Source of the DNA: Steromphala cineraria
Lineage: Eukaryota; Mollusca; Gastropoda; Trochida; Trochidae
Length of the DNA: 64,000 bases
Assembly: GCA_916613615.1 (NCBI GenBank)
Contig: OU744726.1
Span: 62,760,987-62,824,986, forward strand
Direction: 5' to 3'
In this document: piece by piece, positions 16,143 to 58,493 of the stretch
Layout of the letters: each line of letters opens with the position of its first letter
Numbering within the stretch: position 1 is the first letter of the stretch
Program-made: the position numbers and the translations under genes
The notes under the pieces: model-generated
Databases searched by the model: none
Told to the model about the DNA's origin: nothing
The model's input: only the letters and a program-made list of their open reading frames with translations

Positions 16143-16151
16143 CCTGAAAAG

Positions 16152-21647: not shown

Positions 21648-21676
21648 TTAACTTACAATTATCGACTGTCCCTTTA

Positions 21677-22720
21677 ATTAAGGCATTGTGTTATTCTGTT
21701 GTGTTCGGGATAACCAACATCAAGACGCGAACATACATAGGTCAACAAAGTTAGCTTAATTGATATTGCATTTAACAAGAAAACTGGCTGTGCATTGTGA
21801 AGAGAATATTAATTAATCAAATCAATTCATCTTGAGATATTGTGCTGATTATGGTAGAATGTCAAGGTCGCCTTGTAACCTTGAAATGGTCACAGTCAAG
21901 CAAGCTATTGGTGAAAGAAGCTAACTAATATCCTTACAATGCTTTGTAGATTTCCATGGGACATTCTTTTTATGAACATTGATATCTGTAAATTAATCAA
22001 CAAAAATCAAACAGCCACAAAGGATTTATGGATACTTCCCCTTTTAATTTCGATGTGGGTTTTCAAATTGGTTGACCTTCATAAAAATTTCAGTTCCCTT
22101 TTAAGGACGCGTTTAACAAAGCAATCACTTTAATTATTCATTACACAAGGCCATTATCCCAGCTTCATTAATCTTGTCTTAACTAAAACACATTTACCTG
22201 ACTATTGTCACATCCATTATACTCTTTTAATGTGCCCATTAGCATCCTTTCACTTTCACAGGGAATTAGGCCATATTAGATTTTTTTTCTTAGGTTTCAT
22301 TTAACCGTAAAAATACAGTTTCTTTCAAGAAATTAGCATCCTTACTTTTTTGGACACATTCATTTATATACATAAAACAATATGCTAAGGGTCACCTGGA
22401 TTTTTCAGATCATTTTACTTTTTGATTATATATTCTAAATTTTTGGTTGAGTATTTGCATCAGCCTTATTCAAAATATGCTAAATGTCTGCTCCCATTTG
22501 AAAAAGCAAAGATGCAAATTTTATTTTTCTATTGAGGACCATTTTGTATCATACTTTTGCAAAAGCTATTGCATCCATGGTCACATGACTTGAAATAGTT
22601 TTGAAGATACATGGTCAAAAGGCAAAGTTCTAAAATCATTTCTGATATAACATCCAAAGTTCTTCTTAAGAAGGAAACCTCTATTACCTACTTTCTACCT
22701 TGGCTTTCTCTAATTATGTC
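21677..22720. other. Non-coding interval
   Basis: No gene or organised repeat recognised. Confidence 0.5.
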
Positions 22721-23140
22721 TGCCCCCGAAGGGTCGGGAGACATATCTGTTTTAGCTGAGTTCCCGTCGGCGTTGGTGTCGGCATTCCCATTTCGTTTCC
22801 GGAGCATATCTCTAAAACTATGTGACCGATCATCACCAAACTTGGTATGCTGTCTCTCCATATCATGTAGATGTGCCTTTTGGTTATAGATTTCTTTAAA
22901 AAAAAAAAAAAAAAATTTCCATGGCAACAATTTGGACTTAGTCTTTTTCAAGGGTTTCAGCATCAAATCATTTAGAATTTTGAATATTTTGTTTGCTACA
23001 ATTGTGGAGTTGATAGGATATTTATTCAAGTTGAATTATACAGAGAACATTAATGGTGCTTTATGATAGTATTGTTTTGGGGTTTGGAGCATTTGAGGAA
23101 GGGGGAGACATCTGTTTTGACGGTTAAAAACACTTTCTAG
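22720..23140 (+). repeat. Dispersed repeat bounded by GGGAGACAT words
   Basis: Begins tctgcccccgaagggtcggg then agacatatctg, and near its end repeats gaagggggagacatctg. It includes a tract resembling cggagcatatctctaaaact, a poly-A of about 18 at 22899, and ccatggcaac. I associate this GC-richer style with a common, long-lived dispersed repeat of marine invertebrate genomes, from memory only. Class is unknown and no target duplication was defined. Confidence 0.4.
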
Positions 23141-24480
23141 TTGGTATTTGCTCTCGTACTTTGTTCAGATGGTGGACAGTTCTCTGCAAAACTTATTCAT
23201 TATGCAAGAAGGAAATAAAGGAATTCACTTGAGAGTTATCTCCCTGTTTAAAATCCTCCTGTAGGAAAATGTCTGATGTTTTTGGCCAATTCTTTGTTTT
23301 TAAAACAAGGAATTGCAAAAGATGTAATAGAAATATATCAATAACATTGCTTTTGCATGAAAATACATAGATTCATTTGCAATTATTTACCTTTTATTTG
23401 CCATGGTTTTCCAAATATTTGTATTGTTAGTGTCAGATATCTAGAAAACACAATTCAGCACCATGTTTATTAGCAACAGGTTAGTTAATGAATTGAGATT
23501 AGGACATTTACATAACAATGAAGTAACTTTCATTTTAAAGAAAACTTTAGCAATAACCAGTATGATTGTTTCTACTAAATACACAACCAAATTGGAAAAT
23601 TCCAATTGGGCGAATCATTAGCCGGCCCTTCGTCAACAACAGCAATACTCTTGCTAATAAAGAAGGACCACACCATATCATAAAAGACCTTGCAATTTTA
23701 TCTTTCTGTCGTTGTGAAATTGCCTGAAATTAGGTGAAGTCATTTCTTTAGAATTTTATGTCAGAGGTATTTCCTTGGTGAGTATCATTGTTTCTTCTCA
23801 ATTGCTGAAAAAGCATGAAGAAATTTCCAAAATGTCAGTTCGACTTTTTCTATTGCAGAAGTAATTATAATCTTGTAAGACAATTCCTGGTTAATAAACA
23901 CTGTGTGGGTGAGGGAGAAACACAAGACAAAACCATCATTATTTTCAACAAAATAGTCTAATTTGTTTGGATAAATTCAACAAATAATTCACAAACTTTA
24001 ATTTCAAATTGATTGAATTCTGCTGTTTGAGAGACCTTTATAGCAAATTTAAACAGGAGCTGCCATTATAAATTTATTAAATTTGTAAATGTTTCTTTGC
24101 AAATTTTCATATGTGAAAGAAAATCTTTCTACAACAATATTACAAGAATCCAATTTTACCCCATAAACCATGAGGAAAATTTAAGAGAAACTACCGTAAA
24201 ATGTAAAATGTGAAAAATGTTGATATCAACAGTTAAGAAGGGATTAAGCACACTTGGTTAATTCTTATTTGATAAGGAAAAGATAGAATTTACATAAGGA
24301 AATTATGTTTTGTATCTGAAAATAATATGTTTGAGGAAAATCAACAATACCATGAGAAAACTTAACCATTAACAAGAAGGACTTCCTCAATCAATCCACA
24401 ACTTTTTATGAAGTTCAGCAACATTGGGCACATTATGCCATTGAATGGGTGATCCTAAATTTGACAAATCTGTGATTGCA
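23141..24480. other. Non-coding interval
   Basis: No gene recognised. The segment at 24410-24480 shares aagttcagcaacattgg and neighbours with 2905-2975. Confidence 0.5.
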
Positions 24481-24499
24481 TGTTTATTTCCTTGCTTCA

Positions 24500-25215
24500 C
24501 GCAATAAATAATATCATTTTAAACATGTCCCCCCTCATTTCCAACCAAACATTATGTATACAACAAACTTCAAGTTTGTCTTGTTTACAAGGGTGGTCAT
24601 TCAAAAGCCTTTCAGTGCCTTTTTATTCTATCACTCCACAATTTACAATGTCCAACCGTATATCTGACAACAAGTCATTTGTCTTTGTGTATGAGGAAGG
24701 TCAATCAAATGCCTTTTGATATTTTCATTCCCCCATAATGAAGGAGGTTCATTGACAATCTCCAACAAGTTTTAAGCTTTTGTTCTTTGTAATAGGATGC
24801 TAGTTCATTCCCTCTACCTCGAAGGAATTCATTTGCAATGTCTACCCATATATAAGTCAAAAGATTCAAGTTTGACTTCTGTGTATTAGGGGCAAAACAA
24901 AATTTATTTCAATGCTCATTCCCTCAATCATGAAGAAAGTTCATTTAGAATGTCCACCAATACGTAAGTCAAGCAAAAACCTTTCAATGCTCATTCCCTC
25001 AATCATGGAAGTTCATTTAGAATGTCCACCTATACATAAGTCAACAAGTTCAAGTCTACTGTGTAAGGGGCGGTCAAGCAAAAACCTTTCAATGCTCATT
25101 CCCTCAATCAAGGAAGTTCATTTAGAATGTCCACCTATACATAAGTCAACAACTTCTAGTCTACTGAGTAAGGGGTGGTCAAGCAAAAACCTTTCAATGC
25201 TCATTTTGTCAATCA
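24500..25215 (+). repeat. Decaying tandem array, about 105-bp unit
   Basis: The phrase caatgctcattccctcaatca recurs at 24910, 24985, 25090 and 25195, with spacings of 75, 105 and 105. The intervening gttcatttagaatgtccacc and agtcaacaa are also repeated. Older, more diverged units can be followed back to about 24500. The open frame at 24912-25223 is a by-product of the repeat. Confidence 0.85.
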
Positions 25216-25224
25216 AACTCTAAG

Positions 25225-25350
25225 TGGTCAGTGAAATGTGTCTTCACTCAGTAACCACAAGCTTCTCACGACCTTTGTGCCTGGAGGGCTGCAAGGATAT
25301 GTTCTAACATCCTAGTTGTTGTCGACCCGTGATCGGCCGCTATCAATCAA
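25225..25350 (+). repeat. Probable retroposon 3' end with (ATCA)n tail
   Basis: A GC-richer block (gtcgacccgtgatcggccgc) ends in tatcaatcaatcaaa. This resembles the 3' end of a non-LTR element or SINE with a tetranucleotide tail. No ORF remains. Confidence 0.4.
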
Positions 25351-25656
25351 TCAAAGTACAAGTATCCTTAATCAGCGAGTCCCTACAGGCTGAATAAACC
25401 AGGCCTGGAGCTGTAACTAGCAGAGTTCACACGTGGGATATTGATATACATGATGATCAGAGCAAAATATCTACAAATTAACATTTTTTATCTCGTTATG
25501 AAAATATTTCAGTTAAATTTGCCTCTGGTTAGGCAACAATAAAAGCGAAAGCATCTGATAATGAAATGAGATATTTACATTACTTTTTTTTTCAAGGTTT
25601 CGCTGGATTATTTCAACTATGCATAATTGATTTCAACCTTTTTGTTTAGTTTTTAA

Positions 25657-26011
25657 GGGGCAGTAGCACGTTTTTTCATAATTTTATATTTAAAATTTTT
25701 AACTGATAATTGTATGTTATTGCTAAATATATTATGTTGATAGTGTTAAAAATCTCATTACACAAGCCAATCAGTCATAGTCAGAGGACAAAGTATAAAG
25801 ATTCACATAAAATCCATTGGCGGCCAATTTTTTTGAACACCTTTAATTCAATTTGTGTAAGAAAAAGGAATCACATGGCTAAACTTTACATTATATATTT
25901 GAATTATTACTGCTCCATTTAGTTTAAATACATTGCCTTTCAATTAGAACCAATAATTTTCATATTCCTGACATCACCTTTTATTCCCTCTAAAAACGTG
26001 CTACTGCCCCT
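25657..26011 (-). mobile_element. TTAA MITE, full copy
   Basis: TTAA at 25653-25656 and 26012-26015; reverse orientation; ends ggggcagtagcacg and cgtgctactgcccct. Confidence 0.9.
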
Positions 26012-26015
26012 TTAA

Positions 26016-26735
26016 ATCAAAAGGAATCATCATAACAAATACCTTAAAATGATTGAATAAAACTACTGTGTCTTGAACACAAAGGCTGAAATGAACAAAA
26101 TAAATAATTTGGACATTATTTCAGGAAATAATATAAAGATGAACAAGGCGCGCAGTTATCTAAGAGTTATATGTCTTTTCCTTCTCTAGTGTGGTCATTA
26201 TTAATTTTTTAAGAAATTGAGAAAAGGGTTTGCATAATTTTCAAGCAGTTCACATTCCTAACAATTCAAACATTTCAAATATGGGCCAAAAGTTCATTGC
26301 TGTTCCGATAATTTTACCATGGTTTTGAACCAAATGATTGTCGGTTTATTCTGTTTTCTTACAAATTCAGTTACTTTATGTTGCCTGTTTACAAGGAGTG
26401 ACACATTTACAATATTAACTACTGTTTTTTCATGAATCATTCATATCGCGCTGCTTTATCATTATCATTCTTGTCACTCATGTCTTGGGATATTTCATTA
26501 TTAATGATCTATTGATATAATTATCTTGACCAAATATGAATATAGAAAAAAATTACAAATAAACATATCTTGTTTATTTTCCTTTTTTTTCTCATTCAAT
26601 CATCTGAGAAAATAACATGATCAATATTTCATTTGTTGATAGTATTTAAAATTTTACTGTGTAATAAATATTTTCAATTTGATTTGAATATATTGACTAT
26701 GTATGATCTATACCATTGTTTAAATATAGCTGGCT
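26016..26735. other. Non-coding interval
   Basis: Nothing recognised beyond AT-rich sequence. Confidence 0.5.
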
Positions 26736-26739
26736 ACCG

Positions 26740-26917
26740 TGAACACTGTTAGTTCATTTTGTGTAAGAAAAATGAATCGCATGGCTAAATTTTATGTTAT
26801 ATTTTTGAATTATTACTGCTCAATTTAGTTTAAATACATTGTCTTTCAATTGGAAACATTTATTTTCATTTTCCTGACATCACCTTATGTTCCCCCTAAA
26901 AACGTGCTACTGTCCCT
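26740..26917 (-). mobile_element. TTAA MITE, half copy
   Basis: Only the half from the gtgtaagaaaaatgaatcgc segment to the terminus cgtgctactgtccct is present, followed by TTAA at 26918-26921. The other half is missing, so the copy was truncated after insertion. Confidence 0.85.
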
Positions 26918-27119
26918 TTAAGGATAATCAGGTGTCACTAAGTTGTACTCCTTTGGATATAACATATACTACACTTCAAACAACATCATATCTATGCTTT
27001 CATAACAATGATCTCATATATTTAAATAGATTGCATGTTTTGTAGCATGAGGTATACTTTTTGATCTAAACAAATGTGGCATATAACGACTATAATATAG
27101 TATCTATGAAACCCTTTAA

Positions 27120-27475
27120 AGGGGCAGTAGCACGTTTTTAGGGGGAATATAAGGTGATGTCAGCAAAATGAAAATTAATGTTTCCAATTGAAAGACAATA
27201 TATTTAAACTAAACGGAGCAGTAATAATTCAAATATATAATGTAATGTTTAGCAATGTGATTCTCTTTTCTTACACAAAATGAATTAAAGGTGTTCACAT
27301 AAAATGGCCGCCCATTGATTTTAGGTGAATCTTCATAGTTTGTCCTCCGACTATGGATAAATGGTTTGTGTTAAGATATTTTTGACTCTATTAAAATAAT
27401 ACATTAAGCAATAGAGTACAATTATCAGTGAAAAAATTGAAATATAAAATTATGAAAATATGTGCTACTGCCCCT
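27120..27475 (+). mobile_element. TTAA MITE, full copy
   Basis: TTAA at 27116-27119 and 27476-27479, with full family ends and internal segments. It lies only about 200 bp from the half copy at 26740-26917. Confidence 0.92.
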
Positions 27476-27954
27476 TTAATGAAACTGGATGTATAATGAT
27501 AAATATTTCCAATTTCACTGATTTTATCAATTTGTGTAAAATGATTGAAATAAATTCTGTTCAAGACTCTTTAAAAAGTCTGTTAGATCGAGAAAGACCG
27601 ACTAGAAATTGTAACATAACCTTCAAGATGTTTCCCCAGTACAGACATAACATGAAGTTTGAATCTCATAATTGATATAGAATTTCCATATAAGGTTTTA
27701 ATGGGAATTGGATATTTTTCTTATTTCAGTTGTATACATATATAGTCATTTGGCATGTAATAAGTGAAATAAGATAATACAACATTGTGGTACTTGAAAT
27801 ATGGTTTCAGTAGATCTTAGTCTGCAAGAAAGTTCACTTATTTGAGAAATAAAGAAAATTTGACACCTTGTGACTGGATAAGGATATTGACAATGCCTTA
27901 GCTGTTACAAGACTTTTAACAGGAAAATGATGTTTGAGTGTAGTGACAGCATGA

Positions 27955-43330: not shown

Positions 43331-43511
43331 TGTTAGAATCTGTGCACCTAGCATGGAAATACCTTATTACCCCTTACAAAAAAAACTCTAATTAGCAATA
43401 ATGTTGCAGCATTGTTTTCGCTCGACCGTGCCGCAACGTAGCGGCTGAAATTACGAATTTACCATGCAAATTAGCGATCAACAGCGTTGCAGCTAGCTCA
43501 TTTGCATACAT

Positions 43512-43840
43512 GACGACAAGCGTTGCACTCTTATGAGCGACAAGCGTTGCACTCTTATGAGCGACAAGCGTTGCACTCTTATGAGCGACAAGCGTTGCAC
43601 TCTTATGAGCGACAAGCGTTGCACTCTTATGAGCGGCATGCGTTGCACTCTTATGAGCGGCATGCGTTGCACTCTTATGAGCGGCATGCGTTGCACTCTT
43701 ATGAGCGGCAAGCGTTGCACTCCTATTAGCGGCAAGCGTTGCACTCTTATAAGCGGCATGCGTTGCACTCTTATAAGCGGCATGCGTTGCACTCTTATTA
43801 GCGGCATGCGTTGCACTCTTATTAGCGGCAACCGTTCCAT
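43512..43840. repeat. 24-bp subterminal minisatellite, about 13.7 copies
   Basis: The unit is gcgacaagcg followed by ttgcactcttatga. The first five units carry gcgacaag, later ones gcggcatg, and the last carry ttattagcggca. Because the period is a multiple of three, several frames on both strands stay open and give spurious octapeptide-repeat ORFs. The array lies about 140 bp inside the left transposon end. CACTA elements use arrays of short subterminal motifs as transposase-family binding sites, so that role is plausible here. Confidence 0.9.
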
Positions 43841-44149
43841 TTGTTTTACTTCTAAAAGCGACAGTTTTTTTACTCATGGGTGGGTTAGAGCCAATATATA
43901 TTTATTCAGTGTAATGTATCAAAAGAAGCTCACAGTTTCTCTCATGACTACACTGAATACACAAACTTGAACAAAAGTTCAACATGGCTAGTCAGTATAA
44001 GAAATACAAAAACATTGCAAACTTTTTATTTTTTTATTTTGACGACACATGATTAATAACAATAACAATAAAATGTGTGACAGTTGTACATGCAGAAATA
44101 TGCGTGTAAAATGAGCTTTTATACAACATCAGGCATCCTAGCACTAACA

Positions 44150-44395
44150 TGATTGAGGTGGTTTTAACACCACTTTCAGTATTTCACTTATGTCGGTGCT
44201 GCTAGTATAATTGTAGGTGTAGTGGTTTTGCGTCGCAGTGAAATCTACAGGCATCGGCTGGAACTATTGGGGGTAGAATACTGAAATTCAGTGTAGCATT
44301 TCACACAGTTCTCTAATGCAGAAAAATTCCAAGACTCATGGCAGGATTTGAACCACGGACTAGTAACATGGACCATTAACAGGTTTGAGAGATGT
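44150..44395 (-). mobile_element. tRNA-derived SINE, minus strand
   Basis: On the minus strand the B box ggttcaaatcc lies near the head (44333-44358, within tagtccgtggttcaaatcc). The 3' part reads ccgacataagtgaaatactg, then gaaagtggtgttaaaaccac, a tail common in molluscan SINEs. It sits between the subterminal array and the BEN gene's last exon, apparently inserted into the larger element. Confidence 0.65.
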
Positions 44396-44977
44396 GCTGA
44401 ATTATTCCTCATTAATCATCATCTACATGTTATTTTATAAAATAAAATAAATATGACCCACATCTTGAAATATTTTCATGAAAACAGACATCCTAATACA
44501 CATATTTGAGATGATTATGCTTAATTATTTTGTACAATCTTCTTTTACCTAATGTGTAATAATCAAATTTTATATCTCATTTACATTTTAAATAACAATC
44601 AAAATAAATGTGACAGTTTCGAACTCATTTTGAAATACACTCATCAACTCAGACATCTGGTGAGTTACCGTTGAACAAACATCTAAGAACATAATTCATC
44701 ACAAAAAAATAAAAATGACAATTTCAAAATTAATTCACATTTTCAGACATTAGCACTGACAGGTTTGTGAAAAACCAATTTCCTACTTCATGAATAAAAA
44801 TTTTGAAAATAAATGTAGCCAGTGTCACACATGGCAAGAGAATTGAAAATACTTTAAACAGTATATAGCACTAAGAGATTACTAACTAACATGTCCAACA
44901 ATTTAAAATTGTTTGATTATTTAAGCATCAGGATAACTAGCTAAGAAGGAAACTGCAAAATTTCCTATGGGACTCCT
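44396..44977. other. 3' flank of the BEN gene
   Basis: No coding sequence. This is presumably 3' UTR of the minus-strand gene. No minus-strand AATAAA was found in it; the nearest TTTATT on plus is at about 44025. Confidence 0.4.
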
Positions 44978-47900
44978 CTAGATACTGGGGTCTTGAGCGG
45001 CTCCTGAAAAGAGAACATATTAATTAGTTTCAATGAAAAAAGACAATTAATATTAATGTTCTTTTTTAACCTAGAAAAATGTTATCAGTACTTAAATTTT
45101 CAAATGCATGTCCTGAGGACAATAAATTATTATTATTACTATTCACAAAAGTTGCATTTTGGAAAATGCTCTAGCAGAAAAGTCACTTACTCTTCAATAT
45201 CCTGGCCCTAAGGCCTCTTCTCATTGTTGAGAGTTTCTGATTGGATGCCTCATTGAAGGCCTTTGGCGTCATCCTTAGTTCACGTACAGCAAACACTGAG
45301 AACAAAAAATAGTATGATTTCATATTATTTGTATTTAATCATTACTAATTAATTATAATATATATTAATTATTATTATATATTATTTATATATAATAAAT
45401 TATATTTTTTTACAAAAACAATTCCATACACTGGTTTATTATGGAATTTACAAATTCACCTAAGATTTTAACCGAGATAGTAATTCTTTCAAAACAAGGA
45501 AACTCACCTCTTACAGCTTCAATGACAATCTTCTGCCATCCATGGAATGTGCAGATTCCGCCGACATCCCCGACATCTGTGGGCTGGAACATGCCAGAAA
45601 TCATGGCCTTAACCAAAAATCCACCATCTTTTTTGTTGGTTTTTGCCCGGACTGTCGTAAACCAGGCAGTTGGTACAACCAAAGGATGCCCTTCCGCTAA
45701 AGTGATGTACCCAGGGGGACAGGCCATGTCAGCACTTAGGATTCTCTGTTAAAGAAATGACATAATAAAAATCTTGTTGATATATATGAACACATTTTTG
45801 GGGGATTTGAGAAAATATTCAGTTTCGTTTTGTTTTTGTAAAAAATGATATATTATTGATCAATCATAAGTAATTTATTTACAGTATTTGACGATAACAA
45901 TTTGAATTCACAATAAAAAAAATAACAATTTGATCACACTTACAAATTCACACTTTTCGATCTGCAGGCCTGTGGCCGGTTTGTAGTGGTGAGCTGAAAA
46001 CATAAATCAAACATGAACAATTGCACACATGGACAGATTGAAAAATGACATGTTAGTTCAGTATAGGTTAATATCCTTGTAACTCTCCATTCCTGGAAAA
46101 AAATGGAGCTGAGGCTCATAATATTTTTAGGAATGGATAGTTACAAGGATATTAACTGATTCTCAACCTATTGCCTATATAAACATTTGAAATTTCAAGT
46201 CAAAAACTTGGTGAAAAATAGAACGTACTGAAAATAAAGCATAGAAAAAAATGCTGTCACACGTTTACTTTAATATGTTATAGATTTCAGAGCATGCTAA
46301 CTTTTGTTTTTCTTTTCATTCATTAATATTTTTACATTTACATCACAACTTGATAAGTAGTTTTTCATTAAATATCTTATTATTTCAACATTTACCTATG
46401 GATGGAGGATTCTGGTGATTTTTCAAGCAAGCAAGCTCAGCAGTGAGTTTCTGAACTTCTTGTTCAAGACTAAGGATCCTGAGATCCTTTTCCGAACAAG
46501 CATCGCAATGCGTGAGTAAGTCTGCCGTGAACGAATGGCCAGTGTAGGGTCTTCTCAGGAGAGGGGTGTGTACAAGGGTGGGGCTAGGAGCAGAGGGAGT
46601 AAAGAGAGGGGAAGGGAAGTAGTTAGCTAAGGAGGGAAGTGAGGAAGGCAGGGTTGGGGTGAAAGGGGTGGACGGGGCAGCAGGCTGGAATGGGAAAGGA
46701 GTAGGCAAGCTATTGTTAGTTGAGGCATGCTGGGGAGCAAAGGAATCATGCTGGGTTGGTTGGGATGAGGGATGCTGGGTTAAGGGGGTAAGAACGACAG
46801 AGGGGGGAGGAGGGGTTGGAGAACGGGGAGGAGGAGGGGTGGGAGAACGGGGAGGAGGAGGGGTGGGAGAACGGGGAGGAGGGGTGGGAGAACGGGGAGG
46901 AGGGGTGGGAGAACGGGGAGGAGGAGGGGTGGGAGAACGGGGAGGAGGAGGGGTGGGAGAACGGGGAGGAGGAGGGGTGGGAGAACGGGGAGGAGGGTTA
47001 GAAGAACGAGCAGGAGGGGGGTTAGAAGAACGAGCAGGAGGGGGGTTAGAAGAACGAGCAGGAGGGGGGTTAGAAGAACGAGCAGGAGGGTTAGAAGAAC
47101 GAGCAGGAGGAGGGTTAGAAGAACGAACAGGAGGAGGGTTAGAAGAACGAGCAGGAGGAGGGTTAGAAGAACGAGCAGGAGGGGGGTTAGAAGAACGAGC
47201 AGGAAGTGCAGCATGCACTGTGACGGGAGCCTGAAACAACCTTCTAGCCATGTCCTTAGCAGCCTTAACTCGAGCACTTGCTGCTTCCTTCTGGGCTGCT
47301 TTCAGGTCTGAAAATAAATTATATAACATTTCATAAAATGCATATTTTGTTTCAGGGTTCAAAATAAGCAGTTGCCCAGTAGCCAATGACTAGTGATGAA
47401 AGATGTTGGGCTAGTATAATGCAATGACCTGAAGTGCAAGGACTAGTTAGATTTTAATTAACACTTTTGATTATGTCGATGTACTTTGAGAGACATTTTA
47501 GAAGTTGGAATGGCAAAGATTTGATACAGATTCTCGCATACAATGAAAAAAAGAAGTTGTCAACCATAAATTCCTCTGCATTATAATCAGGAATGCACCA
47601 GTCTGAATAGCTGGTTCAGCAATGGGACTGTTTGTTGATGGGTTAGTCTGTTGGACAGCACATAGTAGTATTGAGGTCTAAAACGTCCATTCACATAACA
47701 CTTGAGAAAAACATAGTAATTTTACCTTTGGACTTCTGCTTTGATGTCTCTTGCAATCCCTCAACAGCTGAAAATAAAAATAAGAAGATAATTCTTGCTC
47801 CCTAATTAATTTTCAATAAAAACAAATAAAGAATAATTTTTGTTTGAAAATTTTTTTTGTATGTATTTCAACTTCATAAATACACCACAATGCACTACAA

Positions 47901-50900
47901 ATATACACTACAAGTTTGTAATTTTCATTTACAAGCCCAAACTTAAGCATTGTCGTGCTAGTTATACCCAAAAGTAATTGCTTTCCAAGTCGTTCAAGTG
48001 ACAACAGCATGTTTTTAATTTAGTAATGTAATGTTTTGTGTAATACATAATGAAGTATATTGATAATTAATGTTAAAAATCTCATTGCACAAAAGAGAAC
48101 AAATCACATGAAGTCTGTTTTGGATGAACACCTTTTATAATTGTTAAGGAAAGTGAATTTCATCAATAAATCCATTACATTATGTATGTATTTGATTTTT
48201 TACTGTATACTTCATTTAGTTTGGATAAAAAATCCTTTGGGCCCATTTATTTTCCTGTCATGTTTTATTCCCCCTGAAAACGTGCTATTGTCCCTTTAAA
48301 ACATTAATTAATGCAACAATTCAATAAAATAGAATTGCCTAGGTTACCAACAAAATAAGGATTGTATGACTAACCATCATTTGTCTTTTGTTTCTTGCTT
48401 GGTCCTCCTGTCTGCTTTCCCTGTGGTTTCTTTCTCTTCTCTGGTTCTAAAATTAGACAGATTAAAAAAATTAAAAACACCTTTCATTTAATAACATTAA
48501 AGAAAGTATATCTTAGTAATTGCATCATCAAATCATGATAATTATTTTAACATTGCTTTAACTACATTTGGCGATTAACATTTCCAGTTACTTAGACGGT
48601 AACACTAATAAATATTGGGTAGTTAAGTTTTCAAGAATGTTAATTATTCCAAACCTGATGTGTTGACTGCAATGACAAGTGCACTGTATCGTCGGTTTGT
48701 GGGGGGCCATAATGCAACGACATCATCACCACCTTGAAGCTCTGAGAAAGATGAGATGCTAGCCCCATCCTCACGATCTAAACCTATCTCAGATAGGTCT
48801 ACAATGCTCCTCTCCTTTCCATCTTCAAACTGGACAATCACATGATCAACTGAAAGGAAATGAAAACAATCATTAGCAAGTTTGTCTGAATAAAGATGAT
48901 AAATGAAAATACTAATATTTCTATTTTTAAACAGACACTTTTATTACTAGGTTGTTTTTTTTAAATGAAAAACTATAAATTGCTTAACATGAAATAAAGA
49001 GACAACAGCTGTGTCACTAGACAGTAAGTTTCTAGACATGTTCTAGTGTTACAAGATATCATTTAAGTTTGTAGCAACGAAGCCACCAACATTTTAATTT
49101 CCAAATGCTTTTCGAAACAATTTCGACAAGGGGACAGTTATCAGTTGTTTTTGTCTATCGATCCTTGCGCAAGAAAACGTCTCAACAGATCGTTCAGGTT
49201 GAAACCCTCGATCATACAATATTGTTTACATCTAACTTGTTTACAAAACTTACGAGTACCGGGGAAAATGGCGATCCTTTAGCATACGGTTAACTACAAC
49301 TTATAATTATTGCAGACGGCACATACGTCAGACATAAAAAAAATTATGTTTATTTAGGAAGGAAACAGTAAAATAATATCACGGCGTTTTCTTACAACTC
49401 TTTGTAATAATAACTATTGGCCATAGTAACGTTATTTTCAAATGATATATTATCAGTTAACAAAAAGAATTATAAGTGGCAATCTACATTTAGGGGAACA
49501 GTATCTATGGCCGGAAGTATGTTAAGTGAACAATCGTAAAGCATGATGGGACGTGTAACAGGCTTAAGTGAACGTTAATTAAATACAAAATACTAAATAA
49601 CCATAAAATATATTAATCTCAACGACTGACAAATGTTATTAAAACACAAACACAGAAACTGTTATTGTTTTAAAGCTAAAAAACATACGGTCAAGTTTCT
49701 TAGTTAGGCGTAATGTAATATCACCCTTTCAACAATCGACAGTAATACGATTTAATAAATCACGATGTAATTCGTAAAAAATATGCATTATCGATTTACT
49801 ACTGCCTAATTGTGCTCGAATTGTTGAGGGTGTCTTTATCAAATTTTCGTTTGTGATATTAAGTTGTTAATGATTAACATTAAATAGTAACTTATTCTTA
49901 ATATCATTATAGTTGTTGGAAAGTAGTTTCCAGCAATATGATCGAAACTTTTACTCTAATCCATGGCGTTAATTATAATTCAGAAATAATACAGAATAAA
50001 TATAAAAAGAATATCTTATATTAAATGATGGATTTTAACACCAGAAAATACTGTTAGTTCTAAAAATGTTTAATTCAAGTATATGAAGCCATGAAGTTCA
50101 AATTACGTCATTCACTGTTCTTTTATCCAAAATGGCTTTGATAGGCCTATACATTCAATAATATGGTTACCGAAGTTAAAGAAACTCTGTTAATTATTTC
50201 ATGGCGATTTGATAAAATTCAAAGTTCAACACGTTATACCATTAGGCCTACTATTCAATAAGCAACGTACGTGTGGTATCAACACTATTCGTTATTTATT
50301 CGTTTGTAATTGACTTCATGCAGTTTTGTAACTATTTTTATGTAGGGCCTACAGGACAGGCATTTATATAAGCATTTGCTTGTTTGACAATCCTTTTCCG
50401 TCGTGTTCATGAAATAAAATATGTTTAAATAAATTATATACTGCTCTGTTCTTTATAGTCATTATGAAAGATTTAATTACAATGGATCTTTGATAAAATT
50501 TAAGTCGTTCACGAAATAAACGGAGAATTAAATAAAATTTGTAGCTTGGGTGATTTCCTACGAACAATTAATAATATGACTATTCTATCGAAGTCATTGA
50601 AATGAATGTACATACCTATAAAAACGTGTCCGTCGGAAGATTTTAAAGGACTCTATTAAACAATTATTGTGTTATATATTTTATTTGACTGAATATCGAG
50701 CTATCCCTAACGTATGACAAGCCTTTTGAAATTAGATTTTTTTTCTTCTATTATTTCAGTTCATTTCACACCAAAGTATCGATTACATCAGAAATAAATT
50801 GTGTGAATAATTCGATGCTTGAACATGACACGTTTTTCTTTCTTCGGTAATTTTCTAATAACATTTACAAGTTTTCAATATTGTATCAAAAATTTATAGT

Positions 50901-51084
50901 GTCAAGCTTGGAAAGAGCATTTTTTCGCGAGTATTATTTATTATTGTAATTCGATCTAACTAGATCTATAAGATATAAATTTGATATTTATTAACTCACC
51001 ATTCTTTCGAAGACATGTGGCTGCTTCCTTGTCGACAACTCCTTGGTTGAACCTGTTTGGCAATCTTGTGACTCTTCTCGGCAT
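44978..51084 (-). CDS. BEND5-like BEN-domain protein, 9 exons
   Basis: Exons (minus): 51084-51000, 48849-48655, 48446-48375, 47767-47726, 47307-46396, 45993-45944, 45745-45508, 45295-45191, 45003-44978. All introns are GT-AG and the phases join into 574 codons; the ATG follows an in-frame TGA. Residues 29-93 form a HVIVQFEDGK...VALWPPTNRRYSALV module like the N-terminus of BEND5. Residues 94-131 are basic and nuclear-signal-like. Residues 165-240 are proline-rich octapeptide repeats. A short coiled coil lies near 410-432. A BEN-like domain spans about 455-570 (ITLAEGHPLVVPTAWF, then MFQPTDVG, then the WQKIVIEAVR helix). BEN domains bind DNA and recruit chromatin factors. It diverges from the transposase gene within the same TIRs, suggesting an accessory or silencing-modulating role; a captured host gene is the alternative. 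Confidence 0.85.
45345..45415. repeat. AT low-complexity tract
   Basis: Consists almost only of tat/att words in the intron between exons 7 and 8 of the BEN gene. Confidence 0.8.
46808..47215 (-). repeat. Two coding 24-bp minisatellites in BEN gene exon 5
   Basis: On the minus strand one array encodes PPPARSSN about nine times (47000-47215), and a second encodes PPPPRSPT about eight times (46808-46995). Some units lack one codon, always keeping frame. Both have a 24-bp period, the same as the subterminal array. The product is a long Pro/Ser/Arg linker between the basic N-terminal part and the BEN domain. Confidence 0.92.
47535..47620 (+). repeat. Retroelement-like fragment in BEN intron 4
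   Basis: tctcgcatacaatgaaaaaa then gaagttgtcaaccataaatt and cctctgcattata match the family at 29611-29883. It is an insertion in an intron. Confidence 0.5.
48003..48295 (-). mobile_element. TTAA MITE, diverged copy in BEN intron 3
   Basis: The right end cgtgctattgtccct is followed by TTAA at 48296-48299, and several internal segments are recognisable. The left terminus has decayed to acagcatgttttt. It shows that the host family jumped into the larger transposon after, or during, its life in this genome. Confidence 0.75.
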
Positions 51085-51165
51085 TGTGTGTTCGGAATTT
51101 CAGACAAATGTAACGTGAATTGAATGATATTCAAGTGTATGAATGATCACCATTTACTAACATTC

Positions 51166-51173
51166 AATATATA
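51166..51173 (-). promoter_or_regulatory. TATA box for the BEN gene
   Basis: On the minus strand ccctatatattgaatg contains TATATATT, 82 bases upstream of the BEN gene ATG at 51084. Spacing suits a short 5' UTR. Confidence 0.55.
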
Positions 51174-51537
51174 GGGGTCATGCAAAAACAATATTGCGTT
51201 AACAAGGTAGAGGAGTAGACCTTTGTGGTCAATGCCGCTAATTACCCATCGTTGATTGTCCTGGACAGCGATTGCTTATAAAAACATATTTGCAATCTGC
51301 TAATGAGGTAGGCCCCTAAATGTTTTGACAGACATTTTTCGCCATGAGTTGAGGCTGTCATATGACACAATAGGAGAGGCATAATCCCCATTAAAGTGAG
51401 ATGTAGATGTCAGTTGATTGGCAACAGCGGGCATGTTATCTTGCATAAACTACGTTGAGTTAGTCAAAACTAATCATTTTCTTTGTTACTCAATTCCAAT
51501 GAAAGAAGACCGCTTCCGTCGCATCATGTAAAAAGCG

Positions 51538-51546
51538 TATATAAAG
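51538..51546 (+). promoter_or_regulatory. TATA box for the transposase gene
   Basis: TATATAAAG lies about 70 bases upstream of the transposase ATG at 51614, leaving about 40 bases of 5' UTR if transcription starts 30 bases downstream. Confidence 0.6.
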
Positions 51547-51613
51547 TTCAGTGAGACGTGTTCAATTGAAATCATTGTTCGATGCCGTTTCCATGGTGTG
51601 AGCGGAAAGCAGC

Positions 51614-54600
51614 ATGGCTGAAGGTTTGTACTCTTTATGAAATTTAATCATGCATTTAGGTTGTTCTCAAATGTATTTCAACCTGCTCATTTCCACAAAT
51701 AATAGTTTTCTGCCTATGACCTTTCGAGATATTTTTAGATTACTTAATTGAAATATGGCTTACATATTTTTACATGTACGCGTGTTCTGATAGTAGCATT
51801 ATAGGCCTATATCGTTGGATGTAACGTACAGTCTGTAGTTTATATACAACCGTGTCGGGTAGATTACGCGGATTGTAAAGATACGCACTTTGACAAAAGT
51901 TAATCTAGTAATTGCACATTAAGTGTTACACTGTATTTTTTCACACGTGGTCTATCTTTTAAATTTAGAAGATAATAAGAGGTTTCAGATTGCTGTAAAA
52001 GAGTATAATGTTGAACAGCAGCACAAAACAGTGACATGTTTGTACAAATTTATCGTCATCAAATGTTTGTTTCTCCCATATCAAATGTCAATGGAAACCA
52101 TCCTACAATCTATTTGTCATTCCTTGAACATCTGAAAACAGTTTTAAAATCTATAAATATTATAGAATTGAAAATATTAGGTGTATTCAGATCCTGCCTG
52201 CGTATCTTTAGGCTACATTTCTGGAACTTCCCGAATAGGGTGTAGTCGTTAGAAAACGGTCGTTCACAAAAGAAATTCCACTTGTCAGTTTAACAATAAA
52301 CTTTCACATGGACATCTATAGGGTTTTCTCATATCTTGTAATTTCCTGACATGACTGATCATTTATCTCTTAGGTGCGTATCTTTACCCGTCAGCACTGT
52401 ATATCCATCTTCATTTACGAATGAGCTTTTTCTTCATAGTATGAAGATATGAAGGCTTATATTTTTGCGTAATTCCTTCGTGTGTACATATATAATAATA
52501 CCATGTTTTGAACTTTCAGAAGCATACAAGATTAATCGTTGCGGAGCTAAAAGACCTCGGGCCTACCAGACACGATCAAAGTCGTATTCCACAAGGTAAA
52601 GAAACTTTTATGGCGAATAGCAGTAGCGTAGGGAATTAATTACGACAGGCTTAGGAGTCGTTGTGCCAAAGATAAATACTTAGATAAATGTCTAATGTTA
52701 AGTTGTATAAATTAATAACTGTTATTCAGATATTGGTTATAAAAGCAGTGGAATGCAAGTTTAGTAAGCCACCAGGACAATTATTTACAGTGTTGGCAGA
52801 AAGAACAATATTTTTATGGGATTATTTTATTAATCTAATTGTTTAATATTGTAAGATTGGATTTAAGAGGATTTATAGAAAGTGGTATTTGGAATGGAAT
52901 TTTCAATTGGTATTTATGTCCGATATCAAAATAAAATAATTAATCAAACAATATCAGTAAGAAACAATGTTCACATGAGATACTTGTTGGTAAATGAATC
53001 ATGACTAAATAATATCATACTGCTTGTATTAATATATTCATGTTATTGGTATATATGACCAATATGTGGGTGAATTTTGTCCTAGGTGAACATGCAGTAT
53101 GTAATATTGGGTACTCAATTATATTTTTTACAGTGGTACAAGTAAAACAGTTAAATTGAAAGTAATTGTGTGGGATCATGATGTATGTATATATATGTAA
53201 ATATTATTTAATTCATTTCAGGTTTCAATCAGAAATCAGGAAGACAGTCGACGCAGTTGGGAGAGTGCGACCAACAAAGTATGCCACAAGATCACATACA
53301 ACACCAAACTTAGTGGAGGACCTGGTTGACAGTGATGTCCAGATTGACAGTGTCCAGATTGACAGTGTCCAGATTGACAGTGTCCAGGTCAACAGTGATG
53401 TCCAGGTCAACAGTGATGTCCAGATTGACAGTGATGACCAGAATGTGCATGGCCATGTAGAAAGGTTTGTACATTCACTAATTTTGTATAACATTGTTAT
53501 TTATTGTTATATTATTATTTGTTATAAGAAGGAATGGGATATTTGTAAACAAGCTAATACCCTGTCGGATACAAATACACCAAAACATGTCATGATGAAT
53601 AATTGAATATATACAATACAATGGTATATATACATGTAAATTGTACACCAATAAAATCAGTATAATTATTAATATAACCATGCATATCTCAAAATGCAGT
53701 ACAAACATTTCCCTTTTTTATTGTATTCATTTAAAGTACTAAAGTCCCCATAATGTATAATACTTGTTTTGTATGTTATGATTTGAAGGTACATGAAAAC
53801 ATTCCCCTGTAAAGAAATACTGTAAATCAGTATAGTGCTTGCTTAATTTTTAAAAACCATTATACTTAGTATATAGTATTTATTATGATTTCAGGAATTC
53901 AGATAGTGCCTCACAAGTTCCTTCACTTGATCCTGACCAAATGTCCAGAGATCAAAAAGGTGATTATTTGATGTAAACTTACATGAATTTAAAGCTTTAT
54001 TTACTTTTTTTGTTAAGTAACTTCATGATAACCTTATCTTACTTACCACAAAGTTAAAGTAACACAGGATTGCATTATGATGTCAGTGATAATGAATTAG
54101 ATATGTGTGTCACAGTCATTAAGAGGTGCAGCTGTAATTCTAAAAACAATTGATACAAAATATCACTGTTGAACATTGCTTATGTTAAACTTCTTTGTTC
54201 AGGTATGAAGCAGAGGATTTCTGAGATACTCAAGGACTTCAGTGGTGAACCTACCAGCATTGAGGATCAGGACGAGTTGGAGGATGATTCTGACACAGAA
54301 CATGAAGAAGAATCCCCTGATGAAGATGATGACGGTCCTATCTATGAAGGCCATTGGATGACAGTGTCTGTGTCAGTGATGATGATCATGCTTTTCAGCA
54401 TGGCACATGGTGTAACTGGAGTTCAGTTAGCTGATTTGCTGACACTTGTAGGACTTCATTGCCTCTCAGTACCAAATGCCTTGAAGAGCATCCATAGACT
54501 GCGGAAACATTTTTCTCAACTTGACTCTCCCCTTAAGAGACATTTTTACTGTTCTTTCTGCCATTTACATGTAAATCAAAATGATGTGCTGTGTCCGAAT

Positions 54601-56556
54601 ACTTTCTGTTCCAAAGATTTAACTTCTGCTAAAGCAAAATCATATTTTCTAACTATACCAATTGTCCATCAACTTCAATCTCTATTTCAAAACACTGACT
54701 TTGTAAAAGGAATTGGCCACAGATTTCGACGACAAAAGAACAACACAATTGATGACATTTATGATGGAAACATCTATCAGAAGTTTGTGCAAGATAGTTT
54801 ATTATCTGAAGACCAACCATACAACTTATCATTTACTGTAAACACGGATGGAATTCCTCTTTTCAAGAGCTCGAAGATGTCCTTGTGGCCAGTTTATCTG
54901 ATGATAAATGAACTACCTCATCACATGAGGAAACAAAAATCCAACATGGTATTCTATGGAATATGGTTTGGGACAAGTAAACCCACATTTCCAACATTTT
55001 GTGCTCCATTACATTCAGCTTTGTCTAAATTAGAAACAGATGGTGTGTCTGTAGAAATTGGTAACAATCATGTCAACATCAAGTGCTTTTTATTGGCGTT
55101 ATCAGCTGACTTGCCGGCAAGAGCTGCAGCCTTAAATATGAATCAATTCAATGGTGCCTATTGCTGTATTAGATGCACCCAAAAAGGAGAGAGTTGGCGA
55201 AGTGAGAAAGGGGGTACTGTTCATATTTTTCCCTTCCAGGCTGATGATCCTTGTGGCCCAGAGAGGCAAAGTGAGGAATCGCTGAGGCATGCATATACAG
55301 CAAGTGAAAGCTGTTCAACTCAGTTTGGCATTAAGGGTCCTTCATTTTTTATGGCTCTCTCAAGTTTTGATTATGTGAGATCTGTATCCTTTGATTACAT
55401 GCATGGTGTGTTATTGGGTGTTACCAAGTTGCTAATGTCCTTGTGGTTTCTTCCTGTCCATTCAAGTTTGTGTTTCTCATTGGTTCCCTTGTTGAGTTGG
55501 GTAGATTCCAATCTGTGTCAGATGAGGCCACCAGGTAATGTCTCAAGACGTCCTCGATCAATTGCTGACCATTTTAAGTTTTGGAAAGCATCTGAATTTA
55601 GGGCCTGGCTCTTCCATTATTCTCTTCCTTTGTTGAGAGGTGTTATGGGCTATACTTATTACTACCACTATGCTTGTTTTGTGGAGGCAATTACTATCTT
55701 ATCTGGAGATAGCATACCAAGGGAAAGTGTTCATCGGGCAGATCATTTGCTTAGGTACTTTGTGTTCATGTTTGCACCTCTTTATGGTGACAGGTATGTT
55801 ACCTTAAATGTACATTCACTGCTTCATTTGAGTCAGGCTGTTGAGGATTTAGGACCGCTCTGGGTTCAGTCATGTTTTGCATTTGAAAGTGTTAATGGCA
55901 GCATTGTTGGCATGTTCCATGGTACACAACATGTGGACTTGCAGATAATGTCTTCTGTCAACATGATGCAACTCATGCCATCAGTTTTGTCAAGGTTATC
56001 GTCCGATTCACCCGCTTTGAGTTTTGTGAATAAATTGTGTAGGCTTTCCAAGTTGACTCAAGTTTCTGTAAAGGAGGGTTTTCGCTTTCTTGGTGCATCT
56101 TACAGTGAGGAACTTGGTATGATTGAGAATAGACTTCTTGTTAAGTATCTTCAGCATCAATGGAGAGCACAGCGGTTTTTTAAACGTTGCTTGGTTAATG
56201 GTGTAGTTTTCCACTCTGCTGATTATGGTAGGGGTCTCACTAAGGATTCCTCTTATGCAAGATACAAAGTCAATGGCACGCTCAGGTTTGGTTGTATCAA
56301 GTGGTTTGTGGAGTGTGATGGTGTGAAAAGTGCGGTTTGTCTGTCTCCATTGGTTGAGGGACAGTCAATGCTGGAGGTGTATGGGCAGCAGGAAGACCTC
56401 ATGACCCTGAAGATCACATCAGTGCTGTGCATGAAGCCAAGCCAACAATTTGACATTGTTGACGTGCACAGTCTGATGGATCTTCTTGTTTTCATGGAGG
56501 TTGATGGTGTTTTTTATGTGTCAAGTCAGCCGAATATGGTTGAGAAGGACTTATAG
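51614..56556 (+). CDS. CACTA/EnSpm-type (tnp2-like) DDE transposase, 5 exons
   Basis: Exons: 51614-51623, 52520-52595, 53222-53464, 53895-53959, 54203-56556. All introns are GT-AG and the phases join into 915 codons; the ATG follows an in-frame TGA. Residues 1-130 are basic, then carry a VQIDS repeat (from exon 3). An acidic stretch covers about 150-176. A CxxC...CxxxxC zinc-ribbon-like pair lies at about 248-267. The core matches tnp2 transposases: NTDGIPLF (D347), ADLPAR (D434) followed by a CCIRC knuckle, FDYMHGVLLG (about 529) and FAFESVNG (E693). These correspond to the plant TDG, NDFPA, D-x-MH and PIERYLG motifs, so the DDE triad is D347, D434, E693. It cuts and pastes the element by binding its ends. 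No frameshift or stop breaks it, so it may be active. Confidence 0.93.
53330..53445 (+). repeat. Coding 15/18-bp repeat in transposase exon 3
   Basis: gacagtgtccagatt and its variants repeat, encoding VQIDS/VQVNSD units. The frame is always kept. The repeat adds an acidic, disordered stretch to the transposase N-terminal region. Confidence 0.88.
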
Positions 56557-57180
56557 TTTTATTGAAAGTTCTGCCATTGTTGACGCGCACAGCCTGGTTT
56601 AGAAAGTCAGTTGATTAGCTGTTGTCTTGATTTTCTGGGGTGAAAATTTTCAACAATTAAGTTGATTACGGTCAAATAACATTTAAAAAAAGAAAGATTT
56701 TAACCTGAATTCTGGTGGATCTACTTGTTTTCCTGGAGGTTGAAGGTGTATTTTATGTCTATTTTAAGTAAACCATGCAAATATGTTTGAGAAGGACTTA
56801 TAGTACGTTTTATTGAAATTTCTGCCATTGTTGACGTGCACAGCCTGGATGAGAAAGTCTGTTGATTAGCTGTTGTCTTGATTTTCTGGGGTGAAAATTT
56901 TTAACAATTAAGTTGATTACGGTCAAATAAAATTTGAAAAGATTTTAACCTGAATTCTGGTGGATCTTCTTGTTTTCATGAAGGTTGATGGTGTTTTTTA
57001 TGTGTCAAGTCAGCCGAATATGTTTGAGAAGGACTTATAGTACGTTTTATTGAAAGTTCTGCCATTGTTGACGTGCACAGTCTGGTTTAGAAAGTCAGTT
57101 GATTAGCTGTTGTCTTGATTTTCTGGGGTGAAAATTTTCAACAATTAAGTTGATTACGGTCAAACCAAGTCTTTTAAAAA
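56473..57180 (+). repeat. Three-copy tandem of transposase 3' end plus 3' UTR, about 240-bp unit
   Basis: The last 84 coding bases (ctgatggatcttcttg to gaaggacttatag) plus roughly 150 bases of 3' UTR (ccattgttgacg, then ggtgaaaattttcaacaatt) are repeated at about 56473, 56711 and 56954. The stop codon of unit 1 is the used one; units 2 and 3 are untranslated copies. Units 1 and 3 are more alike than unit 2. Confidence 0.92.
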
Positions 57181-57245
57181 AGACATTAACCTGAATTCAT
57201 GGAAATCAAAATTGTATAATATTTGAATGAAAAACTTTGTAAACA

Positions 57246-57251
57246 AATAAA
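57246..57251 (+). terminator. Candidate poly(A) signal for the transposase
   Basis: AATAAA lies downstream of the triplicated 3' end. An earlier AATAAA at 56926-56931 falls inside repeat unit 2, and another is at 57567-57572; which is used cannot be told. Confidence 0.45.
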
Positions 57252-57645
57252 AACAGCCATGAAAAAGTAAATCTAAAGGATGAACATATTATAAATGTTA
57301 ATTCTTAGTAAAAGGCTCTCAAGAAAATTTGAACCCCTTATGTTGAACAATACATGGTTGGAGGATGTTATTATGTCTGTATAGGACTGGGATCTGTTAT
57401 GGGACTGTCTGCTTTTTGTCTCAAACACTGATAATTATGGTTGACAAACACTGAAATGTTGAAAATGTACATCAAAAACTCAAAGCACAAACATAGATGA
57501 TTCATTGTTATGTTTGAACAAATACAATTTAAAATGTGAAATGTTGTTACTTGAACTGTTGAAACCAATAAACTGACTCGAACATGCATAAATGACTCAA
57601 TTATGTTCTTATTTCTCTACACAGCATGACTGATCATCCTTGGCA

Positions 57646-57706
57646 CAGTGCGGCAATGTAACCTCTTAATCAGCCATCTAATTAAGAGTAGAAACATTGC
57701 CGCACA
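57646..57706. repeat. Subterminal hairpin at the right transposon end
   Basis: gtgcggcaatgt is matched by acattgccgcac, and ctcttaat by attaagag, around a 10-base loop. Each arm resembles the unit of the left subterminal array (gcggcatgcg...ctcttattag), but here two copies face each other. It lies about 115 bp inside the right end. Confidence 0.8.
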
Positions 57707-57821
57707 CATTTGGTTTAATGAGCAACAACCGTTCCGCTCGTTAGGTAATGTTTTGCTCAGAGAAAAAACACAGCTGCAATGTTGCTAAACCATTGTGGCA
57801 CTGTATAAATTTTTGTAAGGG

Positions 57822-58493
57822 ACTAGTATGTCAGAGATATATTTTCAAATGTGGCTATGGCATATTGAACCTTTGGATTTGCTTTGCATCCAACTATATC
57901 AACGTTCCAATGATGAATTCCTAAATGAAATATACATACACCATCAGTTGATCACGGTTGAATGCATGATTCTAATGGGTTTTGTTGGAATATCAATTAT
58001 TACCAGTACATTAATGTAACCAGCTTTAGTCAATGAGTCAGGTATATGGCCCAGGAGAATCATGTTACAAAAAGCATTTCAGTCTTCTCTGTCATATTAT
58101 CCATCGTTATTACCTACTAGAGTAGTTGTATAGGGGTCACATATTTCACACAATCTCCTAGGGCAAAATATCACTTTCGTTGTGACGTCATGTACTAAAC
58201 AATGCTTTGACATCCCAGATCATCTATGACAATTCATTCTATTGTGAAGACAACAGCTTAAGGTCTATGTTTGGAGGCATATTTTGATTATTTGCTTCTG
58301 TAATTAACAGGCTCAGAACACCCCTTGTTCTGGTACTGAACCCGATCGGGATAAAAAAATCAAAACGATGGAGAAAAGTGTCTCTTTTCACATCAGCTCA
58401 CCATGACAAATGAATCCTCAGGTTAACTAACTTTTCGGCCAGCTATCTGCAAAAAGTGCAATTCAAAACGGTACCACAATTTGGTCGCTGCCT
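57822..58493. other. Non-coding interval
   Basis: Right flank of the large transposon. No gene recognised. Confidence 0.5.

Follow-up and report, generated by a model that had tools for sequence, protein, structure and literature searches.

A conserved second gene in a CACTA-type transposon of the gastropod Steromphala cineraria encodes a candidate BEN-like partner of the transposase

Introduction

Does an animal CACTA transposon encode, besides its transposase, a protein of its own that binds the element ends? The question is raised by a 64,000-nucleotide stretch of DNA from Steromphala cineraria (Gastropoda; Trochidae), positions 62,760,987 to 62,824,986 of contig OU744726.1 in assembly GCA_916613615.1, which we call the window. 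A preliminary description of this DNA placed a 14.45-kb CACTA-like transposon at positions 43371-57821 and suggested that it carries, next to an intact transposase gene, a BEN-domain gene whose product fills the role that TNPA has in plant elements. TNPA itself is not known to be a BEN protein. Our computational follow-up finds this extent right to the base (14,451 bp for the whole autonomous element), and we conclude that the second gene is probably a conserved component of it, encoding an accessory end-binding protein with a TNPA-like part in an animal CACTA transposon. We infer that role from the subterminal arrays, the pairing of the genes and their conservation.

Such a helper has been expected for some time. 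DeMarco et al. 2006 found the catalytic protein of the TRC group of animal CACTA elements and, in the portion of their article available, no relative of plant TNPA; they called for tests of a DNA-binding role for the extra TRC protein (PMC1636069).

Results

The element recurs as a unit at unrelated sites

Genome searches covered the source assembly (1.27 Gb), whose contigs we label C2, C7, C32, C37 and so on. Three further full-length copies, 99% identical and with identical end bases, lie at C2:65.00 Mb (14,407 bp) and at C37:4.31 and 4.42 Mb (14,262 bp each). Together with the window element they make four copies with unrelated flanks, in all of which both genes are open and the splice sites shared (4/4). 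The preliminary description had proposed a search for recurring copies with the same ends and both genes, and its expectation is borne out.

The ends themselves are a 12-bp inverted repeat, CCCTTACAAAAA at the left (43371-43382, + strand) and its exact complement at the right (57810-57821, - strand), flanked by a 2-bp AC on either side (43369-43370 and 57822-57823); both the exact ends and the AC flanks had been described correctly. Although the 12-mer occurs only once per orientation in the window, the window alone is weak proof of the ends, because 170 of its 12-bp inverted pairs have a matching 2-bp outer repeat (out of 1201 pairs spaced 5-20 kb apart, many of which stem from other repeats). 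The ends are established because they recur across genome copies. This abundance of inverted 12-mers would favor a chance arrangement, in which a transposon happens to lie beside a host gene between fortuitous inverted repeats. Such an arrangement is vanishingly improbable, however, and we reject chance or artefact as explanations, since the whole unit recurs in full length at four unrelated sites.

Using the left 1 kb as a query, we obtained 57 rows (40 of 353 candidates scored), 39 of which start at base 1 or 2. The remaining 18 are inner pieces, located in the 24-bp array described below or immediately after it; 13 of the 18 are second pieces of loci already counted. With the right 600 bp, 40 of 48 candidates were scored, and 32 of the 40 rows start at base 1 or 2. 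Another right-end copy (89%, 97 bp) lies at C32:62757660-62757756, ~3.2 kb to the left of the window. The stretch C3:31128244-31129645 matches the 24-bp array in five overlapping places and has no transposon end; here the array seems to have turned into a local satellite.

Target sites were duplicated over 2 bp, not 3 bp, in 10/10 copies (AC, TA, TA, TA, CA, CA for the three C44 copies, TT and CC). With the sister-family copy described below included (TA), 11 of the 12 copies examined show a 2-bp duplication, the twelfth being C7:30.1 Mb, which is flanked by AA and TG without duplication. The three C44 copies share flanks and therefore count as one insertion, which puts the duplication at 9 of 10 independent sites.

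The two C37 copies (C37:4314734-4328995 and C37:4419114-4433375) lie ~104 kb apart in the same orientation and are 100% identical over 14,262 bp. No similarity was found between their fetched flanks. Identity of the copies with unrelated flanks points to very recent movement, and the pair looks like the product of a very recent local transposition.

The second gene accompanies transposon sequence

The element contains two divergent spliced genes, the transposase gene at the right on the + strand and the second gene at the left on the - strand. Both are intact and multi-exonic (five and nine exons), as first described, and all introns are GT-AG. The start codons are separated by a 529-bp spacer (51085-51613), presumably the shared promoter region of both genes.

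The second gene encodes 574 amino acids. Exon 1 (51000-51084, start codon at 51084) is followed by a weakly Tudor-like exon 2 (48655-48849), a basic exon 3 (48375-48446), exon 4 (47726-47767) and the long exon 5 (46396-47307), which encodes a Pro/Ser/Arg-rich linker with a possible coiled coil at its end, judged by eye. The Pro/Ser/Arg-rich repeat differs in length between copies. After exon 6 (45944-45993) comes a predicted BEN-like C-terminal domain of ~105 amino acids, whose first part is encoded by exon 7 (45508-45745); exon 8 (45191-45295) contributes a basic stretch, outside the modeled part, that we read as the last helix, and exon 9 (44978-45003) includes the stop codon. A model of exon 2 shows four strands, at low confidence (pLDDT score 54).

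The protein matches 18 genome loci at E <= 0.1. All ten loci at E <= 1e-8 adjoin transposon sequence: for nine of them a transposase match is found no more than 20 kb away; the tenth, C32:6.72 Mb, lacks such a match and has a right-end piece (82%, bases 35-212) ~0.7 kb from the gene. None of the eight weaker loci (E 7e-8 or worse, or fragmentary) lies within 20 kb of a transposase match, and the strongest among them, C40:50.90 Mb (64% identity over 42 amino acids), lacks both a transposase and an end match nearby. For close relatives, then, we reject the idea that a host gene merely neighbors the transposon, as all loci at E <= 1e-8, including C32:6.72 Mb, carry transposon sequence. That the second gene belongs to the element, as first proposed, is upheld at 10/10 of these loci.

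Both genes are conserved in a sister family

A sister family has 844-amino-acid transposase frames that are 77% identical to that of the window and open at three loci, and second-protein exons occur at the same three. One of these loci, C5:46.77 Mb, was read through. This copy spans 13,848 bp, with ends CCCTTATAAA..TTTGTAAGGG and a TA duplication. The nine exons of its second gene match those of the window in order and phase and contain no inner stop, with a tandem duplication of exon 3, and the frame of transposase exon 5 is open.

The C5 copy is inserted in a tandem repeat, which allowed the check for an empty site that had been suggested at the outset. When joined with a single TA, the flanks resemble a neighboring uninterrupted unit, and they rejoin best in this way (score 85 with one TA, 83 with none and 75 with two). 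The expectation of a site with a single duplication thus holds in part: the margin is small, and the comparison uses one repeat unit in the left flank, the right flank having given nothing.

To gauge selection, we compared window and sister genes by the ratio of nonsynonymous to synonymous divergence (dN/dS). Transposase exon 5 gave 0.10 (780 codons, dS 1.5, bootstrap 0.07-0.14) and the second protein minus codons 157-410 gave 0.11 (314 codons, dS 2.4, bootstrap 0-0.19). By part, the second protein gave 0.15 for its N-terminal part and 0.29 for the linker; in the C-terminal part dS is saturated and not computable, with proportions of synonymous and nonsynonymous differences (pS and pN) of 0.773 and 0.20. 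Against the partial gene at C32:6.72 Mb, the ratio was 0.23 (380 codons). One caveat here is that dS between families is near saturation, so these dN/dS values are rough. Both proteins are under purifying selection between the families, and at comparable divergence, which fits long co-inheritance.

Related elements carry recognized BEN genes and palindrome arrays

A genome search with the Pfam BEN model (PF10523) gave 11 matches, all above the cut-off, at six loci. At three of the six, a transposase match is no more than 10 kb away; were loci placed at random, the 50 transposase loci would give at least three such cases with a probability of ~1e-8. At C7:65.54 Mb and C32:1.42 Mb the arrangement is that of the window, with the BEN gene at the left on the - strand and the transposase ~9 kb away at the right on the + strand. 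Over the parts that match, their transposases share 35% and 31% identity with that of the window, and the partner genes score 28.8 and 26.4 bits for PF10523 (cut-off 23.2). In both BEN frames, a charged stretch that looks like a coiled coil by eye and a linker rich in Ser and Pro accompany the C-terminal BEN domain.

These gene pairs are flanked by arrays of palindromes. For the C7 pair, the fetched flanking stretches contain 14 copies of TTCATGAA on one side and 10 on the other. The flanks of the C32 pair hold 14 and 9 copies of ACCATGGT, interspersed with 10 and 6 copies of GGTATACC. In 30 Markov shuffles per flank pair, no palindromic 8-mer exceeded 2 on the poorer side. Both TTCATGAA and ACCATGGT are centered on CATG, and the BEN domain of NACC1 selects palindromes with a CATG core and needs CATG in vitro, according to the part of PMC7764960 consulted. 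The C32:1.42 Mb element has a terminal repeat just outside its arrays (15/16 bases, 40 bp alignable); the C7:65.5 Mb element yielded no convincing pair of inverted ends. The direct repeat next to the putative ends of the C32 element (CATCCTGT.., C32:1415681-1429685) is 9 bp long, CCCTCACCC, and not 2 bp, and the left end of this element is seemingly interrupted by a palindromic insert of ~180 bp.

Could the second gene instead be captured host cargo, with no part in transposition? Gene capture by DNA transposons does happen, fungal ones including EnSpm carrying TET/JBP genes (PMC12730594, in the sections available), and the second protein is barely recognizable among public proteins. Cargo would not, however, be expected to stay intact in four of four copies and also in a sister family at near-saturated synonymous divergence, under selection like that on the transposase; nor does it sit easily with a BEN gene at the equivalent position in two families whose transposases are only 31-35% identical, or with ten best second-gene loci that all adjoin transposon sequence. 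Given this conservation and the BEN-transposase pairs in distant families, passenger cargo is unlikely.

Non-autonomous copies retain both ends

The left subterminal region of the window element is an array of 24-bp units, ATGAGCGGCAAGCGTTGCACTCTT, in 13.7 copies (43510-43836), and a period-24 array is found at the left end of 12/12 copies examined. The motif GCAAYG, related to this array, occurs three times in the right 200 bp, in agreement with the earlier observation of related subterminal motifs at both ends. The right 193 bp (57629-57821) are common to many non-autonomous relatives (88-89% identity) and contain a palindrome with arms GTGCGGCAATGT (57648-57659, + strand) and ACATTGCCGCAC (57694-57705, - strand); GTGCGGCAATGT..ACATTGCCGCAC is partly conserved among these relatives.

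Copies on C42, C44 (three), C3 and C36 and at C7:30.1 Mb have in common only their ends, ~360-580 bp at the left with the 24-bp array in it and 98-193 bp at the right. The sequences in between are unrelated, and some contain frames that look by eye like those of retrotransposons. Since non-autonomous copies retain the left array and the short right end, these are good candidates for the sequences required in cis. The C44 copies (34.5, 34.8 and 37.9 Mb) contain frames that by eye resemble reverse transcriptase, and their flanks share one sequence, so that the sites look segmentally duplicated.

Is the C-terminal domain a BEN domain?

A number of observations weigh against an end-binding BEN partner and are gathered here. 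Outside this genome the second protein is nearly alone: among 5.8 billion proteins (2057 candidates) no homologue was found at E <= 0.001, and a profile search (7136 candidates up to E 10) gave a single 81-amino-acid fragment, with an E of 7.7e-10. The third BEN locus near a transposase, C2:24.75 Mb, consists of decayed and jumbled pieces, with BEN and transposase on the same strand, and the other three of the six PF10523 loci (the C43 cluster, C6 and C37) have no transposase match nearby. The motif of the window array is not a CATG palindrome, save for GCATGC in six units; no palindromic 8-mer is enriched at both ends of the window element, and its array is strong at the left end only. Finally, to judge from the non-autonomous copies, the ends are probably sufficient in cis, and these copies do not point to which protein acts.

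To the same side belong the tests of the domain itself. PF10523 found no match in the window protein (whole, E up to 1; C-terminal part, E up to 10) or in the C-terminal parts of its relatives, and hhalign against two BEN sets (five, then seven sequences) gave nothing with these shallow alignments. Exon 7, folded alone, is modeled as two strands followed by four helices at low confidence (pLDDT score 62). When this model was searched with Foldseek against 350,542 PDB chains, the BEN domain of NACC1 took the first two of ten rows, with E values of 5.2 and 7.1; a second structure aligner, VIA-align, had no BEN domain among its reported rows.

The missing transposase at the C43, C6 and C37 loci is a weak absence, because 56 of 194 transposase candidates were scored. 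A pairwise shuffle test against BEN sequences says nothing on BEN identity, because a BEN-BEN control, Insv against BEND3, also failed (z 0.98). The 81-amino-acid fragment matches neither PF10523 nor any other Pfam model; PDB sequence searches with the second protein reached E 0.45 at best and, in another search, gave nothing up to E 10, and scans of viral contigs revealed no relatives. The C43 cluster has six BEN Pfam matches within 16 kb (C43:29086912-29102973), without a transposase match nearby, and possibly consists of host BEN genes or decayed transposon genes.

These results bear on the possibility that the C-terminal domain has some DNA-binding fold other than BEN, different partners having been recruited in the window family and in the BEN-carrying ones. 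Sequence tests for BEN that failed or gave no decision speak for it, as does the difference in the class of subterminal motif between the two. On the other side, the two predicted strands and four helices of exon 7, followed by the basic exon 8, resemble the order in the BEN domains of NACC1 and BANP, which have two strands and five helices with the fifth for recognition (PMC11472053, from the text available); the basic stretch of exon 8 would be this fifth helix. The NACC1 domain, though not significant, came first among all the PDB chains, and the order of possible coiled coil, Pro/Ser-rich linker and C-terminal domain resembles, by eye, that of the BEN protein in the C7 element. We regard a different fold as rather doubtful. 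The label of BEN-domain gene in the preliminary description is accordingly softened: the Pfam model does not match the window protein, and two related elements have a Pfam BEN gene in the same place. We call the window protein BEN-like; the position of the BEN genes in these two elements makes BEN membership plausible, and the C-terminal domain is predicted to bind DNA.

Transposase and ends fit the TRC group

The transposase is a protein of 915 amino acids encoded by five exons on the + strand: 51614-51623, 52520-52595, 53222-53464, 53895-53959 and 54203-56556. The last of these holds the putative catalytic core (D347, D434, C453/C456, H669/H673 and E693) and the matches to Pfam DUF1258 and Transposase_21. 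Both score above the curated cut-offs (40.2 bits against 33.1 for DUF1258, 32.9 against 28.6 for Transposase_21), consistent with the earlier assignment to the CACTA (tnp2) type, and the Plavaka model PF18759 stays below its own (13.9 against 26.3). When the query is aligned with 115 of 120 listed relatives (five dropped by length), the residues expected for the CACTA/EnSpm (CMC) class are nearly invariant: D347 in 116/116, D434 in 115/116, C453 and C456 in 116/116, H669 in 115/116, H673 in 116/116 and E693 in 114/115. Among the 120 of 150 database matches listed, the named homologues are mostly animal tnp2/DUF1258 proteins, the closest being an abalone protein with 56% identity. Frankliniella fusca transposases of the same group are annotated as Halomucin, Leucine--tRNA ligase and Baculoviral IAP repeat protein; these entries are either misnamed transposons or chimeric gene models.

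For the class as a whole, target duplications of 2-5 bp are the rule, and those of the element are 2 bp. The termini are CCC..GGG in place of the CA..TG of the class, which in the portion of PMC12730594 consulted is given as holding 'in most cases' and is not universal. TRC elements, on the other hand, have terminal repeats with a CCC core and 2-bp duplications (PMC1636069, in the text available), as this element does. The CCC ends, the 2-bp duplications and the transposase thus match the animal CACTA group TRC, and our preferred reading is that the element is an animal cut-and-paste transposon of the CACTA/EnSpm class, probably from the TRC group, which is autonomous and has moved recently.

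Two further repeat features of the window may be mentioned. A 237-bp tandem repeat in three copies (56472-57198, + strand) extends from the end of the transposase frame into the right arm; unit 1 contains the last 85 bases of the frame, and the later units look like decayed copies of the end of the gene. Outside the element, window positions 8600-27500 hold many inverted 12-mers with 2-bp outer matches (e.g. near 8.6, 11.6, 21.4, 25.8 and 27.3 kb), which point to another repeat family there in several orientations.

Discussion

How might the two proteins work together? The DDE transposase would cut at the CCC ends and insert the element with a 2-bp stagger. The second protein, with its weakly Tudor-like N-terminus, linker and BEN-like C-terminus, would bind the subterminal repeats, pair the element ends, and then recruit, tether or regulate the transposase, as TNPA does in plant Spm. 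An additional role in opening chromatin is possible, as for TNPA.

In a stronger version of this last point, the second protein, Tudor-like and BEN-like, would act chiefly on chromatin or against silencing, opening or protecting the element, and would not belong to the complex that pairs its ends. The N-terminal part weakly matches SGF29_Tudor, below the cut-off (E 0.0028 and 0.0016). Plant TNPA reactivates a methylated Spm promoter (PMC1636069, as far as the text available goes), and most human BEN proteins have chromatin-related functions, according to the part of PMC11472053 consulted. We nevertheless consider a mainly chromatin-directed protein quite unlikely, as the relatives with a BEN gene have palindrome arrays on either side of the gene pair, which point to end binding; the two roles may also coexist, as they do in TNPA.

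An accessory end-binding protein invites comparison with known two-component systems. Plant En/Spm likewise has two proteins, TNPA and TNPD, one of them a DDE transposase, and repeated subterminal motifs; there, a single transcription unit yields both proteins by alternative splicing (PMC1636069, in the portion available), whereas the window element has two divergent genes. TRC elements such as SmTRC1 share with it Transposase_21, a CXXC motif, terminal repeats starting with CCC and 2-bp duplications, as well as an additional protein proposed to be TNPA-like. In the same sections of PMC1636069, however, the extra TRC proteins come from alternative transcripts and, by the authors' searches, lack similarity to TNPA or to other TRC proteins, whereas here the gene is separate and divergent and the BEN-like protein is conserved between families. 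Fungal EnSpm, Plavaka and ESTA elements also combine a CMC-type transposase with a second, non-transposase gene; theirs is a TET/JBP dioxygenase (PMC12730594, in the text available), and the window's is a BEN-like DNA-binding candidate.

With the BEN proteins NACC1, BANP, BEND3, BEND5 and Insv, the window protein would share a C-terminal DNA-binding domain, BEN-like by prediction, and the CATG palindromes of the two related elements match the NACC1 target core. It differs from them in being encoded by a transposon and in being missed by the BEN model.

Animal CACTA elements are already known; the BEN partner gene is the new aspect, for which we found no report. Among the matches listed from 5.39 million open papers (Repbase and subscription journals fall outside this scope), none reports a BEN gene in a CACTA element, in agreement with the view of the preliminary description that such a role had not been described in animals. 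One paper joins CACTA, BEN domain and transposon, and concerns lateral transfers in Lepidoptera.

A broader reading would be that a whole lineage of animal CACTA elements has BEN end-binding partners, that each of these evolves in step with the subterminal repeats of its own family (TTCATGAA, ACCATGGT or the 24-bp GCGTTGCAC unit), and that some host BEN transcription or insulator proteins descend from them. We hold this to be unlikely, and put it forward as speculation.

The second gene of the window element is a concrete and conserved candidate for the end-binding helper expected in animal CACTA elements. With a conserved candidate gene, intact and apparently recent copies and visible candidate arrays, the question becomes one that can be tested in vitro. 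It also links BEN proteins, which have been studied as insulators and regulators of transcription, to a role as transposon partners, and suggests one possible source from which such proteins may have come.

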